This document shows, in pieces, positions 12,575 through 39,037 of a DNA stretch of 64,000 bases. The DNA is taken from contig NC_013203.1 of NCBI RefSeq assembly GCF_000024225.1, forward strand, positions 1,302,001 to 1,366,000, given 5' to 3'. The notes under the pieces were generated by a model, which saw nothing but the letters and a program-made list of their open reading frames with translations, was not told the DNA's origin and ran no database searches. Position 1 is the stretch's first letter; each line of letters begins with the position of its first letter. The DNA is from Lancefieldella parvula DSM 20469. Its GTDB lineage: Bacteria; Actinomycetota; Coriobacteriia; Coriobacteriales; Atopobiaceae. The translations under genes and the position numbers were made by a program.

Positions 12575-12740
12575 ATAGGTGCGGCCCTCACATGAAAAGA
12601 CCCCACTTTGGCAACCAAAGCGGGGTCTGGATGTACTAATCTCAAGACCACCTCGGCAGGCGGGAATTCCCATTAAGCCTTGGATTCAAGGCACCGGCTG
12701 TCTTTGGCAGCGAACGTGCAACTACAGGACGTCTGTCCTG
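12575..12740 (-). ncRNA. L10 leader (autoregulatory rplJL 5' UTR)
   Basis: On the minus strand the region contains CCTGCCGAGGTGG (12648-12660), resembling the conserved core of the ribosomal protein L10 leader family. It is followed by a strong stem AGACCCC.CTTTGG / CCAAAG.GGGGTCT (about 12598-12629) ending in TTTTC, which could act as an attenuator. This placement directly before rplJ fits L10/L12-mediated control. Exact boundaries are estimates. Confidence 0.7.
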
Positions 12741-35567: not shown

Positions 35568-35642
35568 GAGATACTCCCTCTTGATATGAATAACGATGCT
35601 TGATGTGACTTTTTACTGTTTCACATCAAATAAATATGCAGA

Positions 35643-35671
35643 TTAAACACGTTGTTTATAGGATATATAGT
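35643..35671 (+). promoter_or_regulatory. Predicted mgtA promoter
   Basis: TTAAAC (35643-35648), 17-nt spacer, TATAGT (35666-35671). It is divergent from rbsK and upstream of the structured mgtA leader. Confidence 0.45.
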
Positions 35672-35675
35672 AATA

Positions 35676-35803
35676 GGTTGACCAAAGTCGTCAACCCAAC
35701 TACTCTTAGAGAGATGTCTGAGTAGATGTGACGTCCGTCCTTTACGGGATTCCAGCTTCACGGGACGTCCCTTACAGAACTCCGATAAAAGGAGGTGCTT
35801 TAT
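35676..35803 (+). promoter_or_regulatory. Structured mgtA leader (candidate Mg2+-responsive element)
   Basis: Three successive stems can be drawn: GGTTGAC/GTCAACC (35676-35696), CTACTC/GAGTAG (35700-35725), and GACGTCC/GGACGTC (35730-35769). Then comes AAAAGGAGG and a small ORF. I do not see the conserved core of the M-box riboswitch. The leader-plus-small-ORF layout upstream of an MgtA pump recalls enteric mgtA control, but the sequences are unrelated. Confidence 0.45.
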
Positions 35804-35902
35804 ATGCCTAGTCGAAGTAGCAGCTTACGTCTGACAGCAGATGCTGACCCTGTTCATTTATGTGTGACGGATATAAAGAAACCTCTTATTCAAAAGTTTT
35901 AA
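35804..35902 (+). CDS. Candidate 32-residue leader peptide upstream of mgtA
   Basis: ATG at 35804, seven nt after a near-perfect AAAAGGAGG. The peptide runs MPSRSSSLRLTADADPVHLC then VTDIKKPLIQKF. The strong ribosome-binding site, and the position in a 550-nt leader of an Mg2+ transporter, suggest a regulatory ORF whose translation senses an ion or amino acid. The stop is followed by TTTTTACT. No homologue is known to me. Confidence 0.5.
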   Translation: MPSRSSSLRLTADADPVHLCVTDIKKPLIQKF

Positions 35903-36121
35903 TTTTTACTGCACCACAAGCCTATAGGGATATAAATTTGCAGGTTTACTTGAACAATCCTGCAGATATATGAATCTATGTGGCAGGTTTCAAGATTGTC
36001 CAATCCGGATCGTCTGTCTCAGATCGTTCAGTTTCAATTCCCACACATAACAGAACGCTTTCAGTTTGCGTCATACACCAACCAGTTAGTCACTCGTTTT
36101 CACTAATCATCGGAGGTGCAC
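35903..36121 (+). other. Remaining mgtA 5' untranslated region
   Basis: No supported gene. A stem TTTGCAGG / CCTGCAGA (about 35937-35967), flanked by ATAT runs, could pair differently depending on translation of the leader peptide. No run of Ts follows it, so it does not look like a simple terminator. Confidence 0.4.
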
Positions 36122-39037
36122 ATGACAATCATGAAGCGCACAACCCAAACAAAAACAACTCAGACCACCTCAGGAGAGCTTGGACAGTCCCTGACTTTTG
36201 CCGCAACTCACTCGGTAAAAAGTGTCTGTAGAAAATTCCATACCACTCCCGACGGCCTTGCCATTGACATTGCGCAAGCAAAATACGACCTCGATGGCCC
36301 AAATGTTATCACCGGTGCCGCTGAAGAGCCCTTCATCATCCGCTTGCTCAAGAGCTTTGCAAGTCCCTTCACCTTCATTTTGATTGCTCTCGCAGGCATT
36401 TCTTACATCACTAACGTGGTCCTTGCCACAGATGGCGAGAAGGACCCTTCAACCGTCATTATCATTACGTCAATGGTGTTTATTTCCGGCATTATCGACT
36501 TTGTCCAGAGCTCCAAGGGAGCCTCGGCAGCGGCGGCGCTCTCCAAAATGGTGACCTCCACTACAAGGGTTATCCGTCGTCCCATCGACTTTGATGACCT
36601 GGCCACTGACCAGGATTCTAGCCAAAATCTCAACCAGAACTCAGACGAAAGTACAGATGAACTCAAGGACTTTGAAGATGAATACGCTACAGATGAAACC
36701 GCGGGCGAATCCGAGGACGCCGCCGACGAAGACGAAGCTTCAGAGCCTAAACTTGCTTCCGCGCTGGGAGAAGAAATACCCTTTGAACAGGTAGTTATTG
36801 GTGACATCATCCGCCTTGCTTCGGGCGACATGATTCCTGCAGATTGTCGCGTTCTGGACGCCAAGGACCTCTTTGTCAACGAAACAGCGCTCACCGGAGA
36901 ATCAGAGCCTGTCGAGAAAACCGCTGGTGTAGTCCACGCTCGCCGTCGCGCAGATGGAACACGCTATCCTCTCTCGCTCTCGGAGTGCACAAACCTGCTG
37001 TTCGCCGGCACTACCGTTCAGTCAGGAAGTGCAACGGTGGTTGTTGTTGCAACTGGCAACAAGACTTATGTGGGCACAATGTCCGAGATGCTCCAGCAGC
37101 CTTCTGGCGAGACCAGCTTTGATGAGGGTCTCAAGTCCGTTTCCAAGGTACTTGTTTCCTTCATGTTGATCATGTGCCCCATCGTGTTCTTTGCAAACGG
37201 ATTCCTTAAGGGCGACTGGTTTGATGCACTGCTCTTCAGCGTTTCCGTTGCCGTTGGTATTACTCCTCAGATGCTGCCCGTTATTGTAACCACTTGCCTT
37301 TCTCGCGGTGGAACACAAATGGCCAAGCAGGACGTTATTGTTAAGAATCCAGCCGCAATCCAGAACCTGGGCGCCATGGACATCCTGTGTACCGACAAAA
37401 CTGGCACCATCACCGCAGACGAGGTTGTTCTCGAACGTCACCTCAACATTCTGGGTGAAGAGGACGCTCGCGTGCTCCGCCATGCGTATCTGAACAGCTA
37501 CTTCCAAACCGGCCTCAGAAACCTTATTGACAAGGCAATCATCAAGACTTCAAACGATGAACTGCCCACCAACTTGCTGAGCATTGAATACGAGAAGATC
37601 GACGAAGTCCCGTTTGACTTTGAGCGTCGCCGCATGAGCGTTGTGGTAAGAAACACAAAAACTAACAAGACGCAGATGATCACTAAGGGCGCCGTTGAAG
37701 AAGTCCTCAACGCATGCTCCTTTGTTGACCTTGACTCTGAGATTAAGCCACTCACTCCCGCCCAGCGCAAGAGCGTTATGGACCGCGTCTACCAGCTCAA
37801 TCAGGAGGGTATGCGCGTGGTTGGCGTTGCTCAGAAGAGCGACCCTCGCGGCGTCGGCGAGTTTGGCGTAGACGATGAGCGCGACATGGTGCTCATTGGC
37901 TACCTGGCCTTCTTGGATCCGCCAAAAGAGAGCGCTCGCGAGGCAATTGCCAAGCTTAACCAGAGAGGCGTGCAGGTCAAGGTGCTCACCGGCGACAACG
38001 AGGGCGTTGCTGCCGCCGTCTGCAAAAAAGTGGGCATCCACGTTGACGAACTCCTGCTTGGTAGCGACGTAGAGAACCTCAACGATGAGCAGCTCAAAGA
38101 GCGTGTTGAAAAGACCCAGCTCTTTGCAAAGCTTTCCCCCATGCAAAAGGCCCGTGTTGTCTCTGCGCTCAGATCCAACAACCATGTTGTCGGCTTTATG
38201 GGCGACGGCATTAACGATGCTGCTGCTATGCGCTCTTCCGATGTAGGAATTTCCGTAGATACCGCTGTTGACGTGGCAAAAGAATCTGCTGACATTATCT
38301 TACTGCAAAAGGATCTGCTGGTACTTGAGCACGGCGTTGAAGAAGGTCGCAGAACCTACGGCAATACCATCAAGTACATCAAGGCAACCGCAAGCTCCAA
38401 CTTTGGTAACGTACTGTCCGTTTTGGTGGCCAGTTTCTTCCTTCCGTTCTTGCCTATGAGCGCCCTTCAGCTGCTCCTTTTAGGACTCGTATACACCGTT
38501 ACCTGCATTGCCATTCCTTGGGACAACGTGGATGATTCATTCCTTTCAAGTCCGCGCTCTTGGGACGCCCATTCAATTACAAACTTTATGCTTTGGATTG
38601 GACCTATCAGTTCAATTTTTGATGTACTTACCTTTGCCCTCATGTTCTTTATGGTCTCTCCCACTCTTGCCGGAGGAACCTGGGCAGAACTTACCGCAGC
38701 TGGAAACACCGCAGCTCAGACGCTCTTTATCCTGTCTTTCCAAACAGGCTGGTTCATCGAATCTATGTGGACCCAAACCTTTGTCCTCCACGCACTTAGA
38801 ACCAATAAAATCCCGTTTGTTCAGAGCATGCCATCAGCTTCCTTACTTACTCTAACCACCGCGGGAATCGTTGTAGTCAGCGCTCTTCCGTATCTGCCGG
38901 TGTTCGCCCAGCCCTTGAGCCTTGTTGCTCTACCTTTGTCGTTCTTTGGATGGCTAATTGCACTCATGAGCGGGTATATGGTTCTTATCACCATAATCAA
39001 GAGCCTCTACGTTAAGCGATTTGGCTCTCTGCTCTAA
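36122..39037 (+). CDS. mgtA: Mg2+-transporting P-type ATPase (MgtA/MgtB type)
   Basis: P3B-type pump importing Mg2+ across the inner membrane. I use the ATG at 36122 (971 residues) with CGGAGG upstream. Landmarks: actuator loop TALTGESEPVEK (TGES), phosphorylation motif DKTGTIT, TGDNEGVAAAVCKK, and the hinge GFMGDGINDAAAM. About ten membrane helices. Between RRPIDFDDLA and LGEEIPFEQV lies a roughly 55-residue Asp/Glu-rich insertion. The GTG at 36116 is an alternative but overlaps the ribosome-binding site. Confidence 0.95.
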   Translation: MTIMKRTTQTKTTQTTSGELGQSLTFAATHSVKSVCRKFHTTPDGLAIDIAQAKYDLDGPNVITGAAEEPFIIRLLKSFASPFTFILIALAGISYITNVVLATDGEKDPSTVIIITSMVFISGIIDFVQSSKGASAAAALSKMVTSTTRVIRRPIDFDDLATDQDSSQNLNQNSDESTDELKDFEDEYATDETAGESEDAADEDEASEPKLASALGEEIPFEQVVIGDIIRLASGDMIPADCRVLDAKDLFVNETALTGESEPVEKTAGVVHARRRADGTRYPLSLSECTNLLFAGTTVQSGSATVVVVATGNKTYVGTMSEMLQQPSGETSFDEGLKSVSKVLVSFMLIMCPIVFFANGFLKGDWFDALLFSVSVAVGITPQMLPVIVTTCLSRGGTQMAKQDVIVKNPAAIQNLGAMDILCTDKTGTITADEVVLERHLNILGEEDARVLRHAYLNSYFQTGLRNLIDKAIIKTSNDELPTNLLSIEYEKIDEVPFDFERRRMSVVVRNTKTNKTQMITKGAVEEVLNACSFVDLDSEIKPLTPAQRKSVMDRVYQLNQEGMRVVGVAQKSDPRGVGEFGVDDERDMVLIGYLAFLDPPKESAREAIAKLNQRGVQVKVLTGDNEGVAAAVCKKVGIHVDELLLGSDVENLNDEQLKERVEKTQLFAKLSPMQKARVVSALRSNNHVVGFMGDGINDAAAMRSSDVGISVDTAVDVAKESADIILLQKDLLVLEHGVEEGRRTYGNTIKYIKATASSNFGNVLSVLVASFFLPFLPMSALQLLLLGLVYTVTCIAIPWDNVDDSFLSSPRSWDAHSITNFMLWIGPISSIFDVLTFALMFFMVSPTLAGGTWAELTAAGNTAAQTLFILSFQTGWFIESMWTQTFVLHALRTNKIPFVQSMPSASLLTLTTAGIVVVSALPYLPVFAQPLSLVALPLSFFGWLIALMSGYMVLITIIKSLYVKRFGSLL

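Follow-up and report, generated by a model that had tools for sequence, protein, structure and literature searches.

The mgtA gene of Lancefieldella parvula DSM 20469 stands behind a long leader that holds a short upstream open reading frame (uORF), and the locus raises the question of whether Mg2+ would be sensed there by the RNA itself or by the ribosome that translates it. The leader lies in the window, as we call the whole stretch of 64,000 nucleotides that was analysed, and all positions given below are those of the window.

Layout of the mgtA leader

The following features frame the leader:

36122..39037, + strand: mgtA, Mg2+-translocating P-type ATPase (TIGR01524, 1032 bits)
35678..35706, + strand: putative promoter TTGACC-N17-TACTCT, found by eye in 5/5 genomes of the genus, 17-nt spacer
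35926..35975, + strand: post-uORF hairpin (z -3.1, 1/200 shuffles as good)
36010..36108, + strand: C-rich, G-poor spacer, candidate Rho-binding region (C 29%, G 13%)
36112..36118, + strand: Shine-Dalgarno (SD) sequence of mgtA, GGAGGTG, read from the sequence

The first-pass annotation had drawn a leader of about 450 nt behind a TAAACA/TATAGT promoter. A long leader was retained here, but that promoter was rejected, being kept in the nearest relative (G026) alone and not further out. The sequence TTGACC-N17-TACKCT, recognized by eye, is common to all five species of the genus, and from this putative promoter transcription would start near 35712-35714, giving a leader of about 410 nt. Three stems had also been proposed before the ORF and one after it. 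The latter stands as the post-uORF hairpin, which is retained in G026 with one G-C pair changed to G-U; no counterpart was seen in G023-G025, the remaining species of the genus. The stem at 35676-35699 (z -4.2 in the shuffle test) overlaps the -35 element, while the -10 element and the transcription start are covered by the inverted repeat CAACTACTC/GAGTAGATG; both structures are therefore better explained as DNA of the promoter than as RNA of the leader. The region 35713-35785, on its part, folds no better than its shuffles (z 0.2).

The 100 nt directly 5' of mgtA rank third among 180 upstream regions of this genome for C minus G, C exceeds G in the spacer before mgtA in 41/44 relatives, and a rho gene was found in the genome. 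An attenuator based on an intrinsic terminator was considered and dropped, since such terminators were found between uORF and mgtA in just 5/48 relatives and not in the window leader. A strong terminator-like hairpin (GGCGAGAAGA..TCTTCTCGCC-TTTTT, about 920-960 of locus L114) does occur in G023, beginning 5' of the uORF at the point where transcription of the leader presumably starts; the genus's other species showed none. Elsewhere in the window, a perfect 9-bp, operator-like inverted repeat (TTGATGTGA-N12-TCACATCAA, 35600-35629) lies just 5' of a divergent ribokinase-like gene and is not retained in G026, and a ribosomal protein L10 leader (RF00557, 47 bits, near the gathering score) lies on the minus strand at 12586-12725.

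The absence of a recognizable M-box core, remarked upon from the letters alone, was borne out by the covariance model: RF00380 had no match in the leader, in the whole genome or in 140 genomes of the family. With Rfam 15, no family reached its gathering score in the leader, and the only hit up to an E value of 5 was mir-590 (E 1.8), on the other strand.

The uORF, its relatives and its serine codons

Between promoter and hairpin, the uORF shows the following elements:

35789..35797, + strand: SD of the uORF, AAGGAGGTG (9/9 match)
35804..35902, + strand: uORF of 32 codons, MPSRSSSLRLTADADPVHLCVTDIKKPLIQKF (ATG 35804, stop 35900-35902)
35810..35818, + strand: AGTCGAAGT, with serine written as in-frame AGU at codons 3 and 5, common to the other species of the genus
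35843..35854, + strand: DADP (codons 14-17), candidate ribosome-destabilising motif of L. parvula, read from the sequence and of presumed function

Both the 32-codon ORF and its AAGGAGGTG were confirmed where the first-pass annotation had placed them. Such an arrangement is rare in this organism: in 464 kb of control DNA (400 kb of genome pieces plus the window), among genes preceded by a gap of 150 nt or longer, mgtA alone (1/185) carries an ATG uORF of 10-65 codons with an SD match of at least 7. The annotation had made its reading depend on conservation of leader and ORF in close relatives, and here it fared very well. By DNA search, the leader was found in one other genome of 140 (G026), at the same place 5' of mgtA, where substitutions number 1/52 nt in the promoter segment, 12/75 in the 5' stem region and 1/99 in the uORF, and reach 4-24% in the segments past the uORF. 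The single uORF substitution is nonsynonymous, and none of the 31 codons after the start is changed synonymously (P about 7e-5), against a synonymous difference in 27% of the mgtA codons with identical amino acid. uORFs also stand at the same place in three other species of the genus (G023-G025), with TATAAGGAGGTGCTTTATG and AGTCGAAGT and peptides of the type MSDHSRS..., relative to which the window and G026 seem, from the alignment, to have lost two codons (Asp-His).

In the family as a whole, an SD-led uORF precedes mgtA at 55/64 loci, each upstream region being represented by whichever short ORF had the best SD, picked blind to its peptide; a script assigned both the mgtA starts and the uORFs, and the sequences compared are not independent. 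Five doubtful uORFs were set aside, leaving 50 for the tests below. Asp or Glu occurs at codons 2-4 in 47/50 of them, compared with 31% of the genes of this genome, and the usual starts are MSDGSS, MSDSHS, MDADSS, MNDRSS and MGDSSH. The window and G026 supply two of the three exceptions: their peptide has no acidic residue at codons 2-4, keeps the AGU codons and carries DADP at codons 14-17. Judged against its relatives, the L. parvula peptide is a derived form from which the early acidic residue has gone. Constraint on the peptide as a whole is weak (pN/pS 0.66), and weak past the first codons, and most of the uORFs are separated from mgtA by about 60-220 nt. One locus (G021:C2:319792-325027; L149, L155) holds a tandem mgtA pair with the uORF before the first copy and none before the second.

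The most distinctive trait of these uORFs is their serine codon. At codons 4-9, 69% of serines in the family uORFs are written AGT, compared with 3% in the opening codons of mgtA from these genomes. Within the first ten codons, AGT is distributed over the three frames as 74:0:0 (anywhere from codon 2 to codon 10), whereas the ordinary genes of L. parvula give 38:37:37; the AGT counts of the uORFs are inflated by the relatedness of the sequences. The signature is present in 13/14 genera of the family, and AGU is strongly favoured over AGC and TCN, GC-rich genomes included. Since AGU occurs in frame at shifting positions, and an RNA motif need not hold the frame, it would act as a codon; such frame-specific use is the best evidence, and strong evidence at the sequence level, that the uORF is translated and that its decoding matters. 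A serine-starvation attenuator was rejected because TCN codons, the serine-responsive ones in Bacillus subtilis, are depleted in the uORFs. No report of the AGU signature, nor of an effect of Mg2+ on AGU decoding, was found in the open-access literature searched.

Traits of the same kind were found in a wider sample, composed of the best 80 mgtA loci in a collection of genomes at species level (two of them from this family). An SD-led ATG uORF precedes 44 of these 80 loci, with early Asp or Glu in 34/44 (27/33 distinct ones). Some examples are MDAGSSNG, MDASSSNG, MEDGSSK, MSDESSSG and MDSDSSP, together with MESQSINSPEPE in Lactococcus, MQIDDHPEPH in Streptococcus and MDPDPTP in Serratia. Outside the family, 67% of uORF serines are AGT, compared with 18% in mgtA (p 1.6e-11); the leaders of Streptococcus, Serratia and Rahnella have no AGU and carry D/E-P motifs instead. 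About 442 nt before mgtA, a Neisseriaceae locus (L074) shows MDSCSSNGPRPVSANPVQA behind a weak SD, near the Clostridial MDASSSNG type. Among the 35 loci of the wider collection scanned with Rfam, 20 have a same-strand M-box 5' of mgtA, and at several loci (L015 2480-2717, L037 2559-2819, L055 2652-2873 and others), mainly of Bacillota, the order is M-box, in several cases an intrinsic terminator, acidic uORF and mgtA. Most of the uORFs behind an M-box contain AGU, those of Streptococcus do not. From this arrangement, a single gene is apparently served by two successive Mg2+ sensors, M-box and acidic uORF, mainly in Bacillota; no report of such a tandem was found in the open-access literature searched.

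Pairing of the uORF body with its own start region

The strongest RNA feature of the leader, absent from the first-pass annotation, is the pairing of the SD and start region with codons 23-28 of the uORF itself:

35790..35805, + strand: 5' arm of the self-masking hairpin (SD and start region), from folding
35871..35887, + strand: 3' arm (anti-SD/anti-start) inside the uORF (dG -17.6, synonymous mean -10.8, p 0.0005)

The paired stretches in the window are 35790-35796 with 35881-35887 and 35798-35805 with 35871-35878, and the segment that contains them, 35785-35890, has a folding energy of -30.6 kcal/mol (z -3.2, 0/200 shuffles as good). Native self-pairing beats versions recoded with synonymous codons (p <=0.05) in 32/50 family uORFs and in only 8/143 control genes; the same test was passed by 15/29 uORFs of the wider sample, two of these 29 belonging to the family. 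When SDs and uORF bodies were permuted between genera, the cognate pairing (-22.5) surpassed the permuted one (-19.5) with p <=0.006 in all 200 genus resamplings over 14 genera, a result that may be raised by base composition shared within genomes, to which the synonymous test is immune. G137, a member of the family with a GUG start, has CACGGG in place of the CAUGGG of AUG-start members. RNAalifold, applied to three groups, recovered the pairing of SD and start with CAUGGG in two of them with few changes on both sides, so that the synonymous and swap controls are the stronger tests.

In several genomes, inspection by eye suggests that the leader masks the mgtA SD or that the uORF body pairs with the post-uORF segment; over 44 loci, neither of these two pairings exceeded dinucleotide shuffles overall, and neither is supported as a conserved feature. 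As read from these comparisons, the uORF shows codon-level selection near its start and RNA-level selection in its body.

Proposed mechanism, rival readings and known systems

We consider it somewhat probable (about 0.55) that the mgtA leader is a cis-acting element built on a translated uORF, working as a translational Mg2+ sensor of the MgtL kind. The annotation had proposed ribosome- or RNA-dependent sensing of Mg2+ by an undescribed element; ribosome-dependent sensing is favoured here, but control of this kind has already been described for the enterobacterial MgtL, from which ribosomes drop off at EPDP at low Mg2+, the leader then refolding and mgtA being transcribed (PMC11282234). Ribosome-dependent control is preferred over aptamer-type control because of the in-frame AGU codons, the acidic N-termini in relatives, the masking of the SD by the uORF body and the lack of an M-box. 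We infer the Mg2+ response from the identity of mgtA and from precedent, as well as drop-off or pausing at early codons and Rho as the output step. Rho is favoured because the spacer is C-rich and G-poor and rho is present, while conserved masking of the mgtA SD is unsupported and intrinsic terminators are few. With ample Mg2+, ribosomes would pass the early codons, reach the end and hold the uORF body open, and mgtA would be off because the C-rich spacer past the uORF is exposed to Rho. With scarce Mg2+, ribosomes would pause or drop off within the first codons, the body would fold back on the start region, and the downstream RNA would refold to allow transcription and translation into mgtA. 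In L. parvula, which lost the early acidic residue, the motif may have shifted to DADP. The absence of early Asp or Glu from the window peptide and the weak peptide constraint over the whole uORF speak against the MgtL-like reading, as do the two downstream pairings that do not exceed shuffles and the scarcity of intrinsic terminators past the uORF. Moreover, the destabilisation so far described acts through amino acids and gives no reason for writing serine as AGU.

The sensor might instead be codon-specific, the decoding of AGU by the wobble-reading AGU/AGC serine tRNA, slow or prone to drop-off at low Mg2+, being decisive rather than acidic destabilisation. The in-frame AGU at shifting positions and its preference over AGC and TCN, also in GC-rich genomes, fit this possibility, as do its excess outside the family (67% against 18%) and the window species, which lacks the acidic residue yet has AGU; however, no report of Mg2+ acting on AGU decoding was found in the open-access literature, and the AGU-free leaders of Streptococcus, Serratia and Rahnella have D/E-P motifs, so we regard it as doubtful. 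AGY might also have been chosen merely to keep the uORF blind to serine supply, AGU reflecting avoidance and not sensing. The Bacillus subtilis work on SinR and Sda, in which TCN codons slow ribosomes under serine shortage and AGY codons less so (PMC3862929, PMC11925247), suggests such a role, which is nonetheless unlikely, as it does not predict AGU over AGC far past genome usage, and ordinary genes lack such a bias.

A pure RNA switch for Mg2+, that is, a new riboswitch with an incidental ORF, would agree with the conserved structure and the strong nucleotide constraint; it is very improbable given the perfect SD, the frame-specific AGU and the acidic codons, which point to translation, and given that what the pairing conserves is the masking of the SD and that the search brought up no aptamer-like core. 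Just as improbable is a uORF that merely couples translation to mgtA or encodes a small protein with a function of its own, Mg2+ sensing playing no part: the strong SD and a conserved Mycobacterium uORF peptide of unknown role (PMC12810186) would suit it, but the gap of mostly about 60-220 nt, the weak peptide constraint past the first codons and the recurrent link to mgtA and M-boxes do not.

The preferred reading, a translational sensor of the MgtL kind, can be compared with several known systems. In common with MgtL, there is a short uORF before mgtA with early acidic residues (in most relatives here), an SD within a stem, as in the mgtA and corA leaders where the uORF SD is masked in stem A (PMC11552253), and rho in the genome; unlike MgtL, this lineage has no DP/EP run at codons 2-5, uses AGU serines and has a fold-back covering most of the uORF, the leaders have no Rfam-level similarity, and L. 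parvula lacks the early acid. The mgtQ uORF of Salmonella mgtCBR, with Asp2 and Glu5 (PMC8092293), shares a strong AGGAGG SD, acidic residues in codons 2 and 5 and a uORF-body stem competing with downstream stems, but has only 8 codons and lies between genes, before mgtB, and masking of the mgtA ribosome-binding site is unsupported here by the shuffle test. In corL of corA, uORF translation represses a downstream Mg2+ transporter gene, as is proposed here, with the SD in stem A and with Rho; the gene differs, the start is TTG in E. coli and acidic and proline residues are fewer (PMC11552253). The M-box also leads Mg2+-related genes and stands upstream of the same kind of uORF at many non-Coriobacterial mgtA loci, and the translational M-box with uORF of Mycobacterium tuberculosis follows a similar SD1/anti-SD/SD2 logic (PMC12810186), whereas the window and the 140 family genomes have no M-box.

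Reports of MgtL-type sensing were found in the open-access literature only from enterobacteria, and none for this lineage. More tentatively, ribosome handling of in-frame AGU beside acidic residues, coupled to fold-back on the uORF start site, might act as a Mg2+ sensor in several phyla, lying behind the M-box in many Bacillota and replacing it in Coriobacteriia. If the proposed reading is true, Mg2+ sensing by the ribosome would be a widespread strategy, Actinomycetota and Bacillota included. The AGU signature points to the decoding step and would make the mechanism addressable by synonymous codon changes, and the tandem loci suggest that a single gene can be placed under M-box and leader-peptide control at once.
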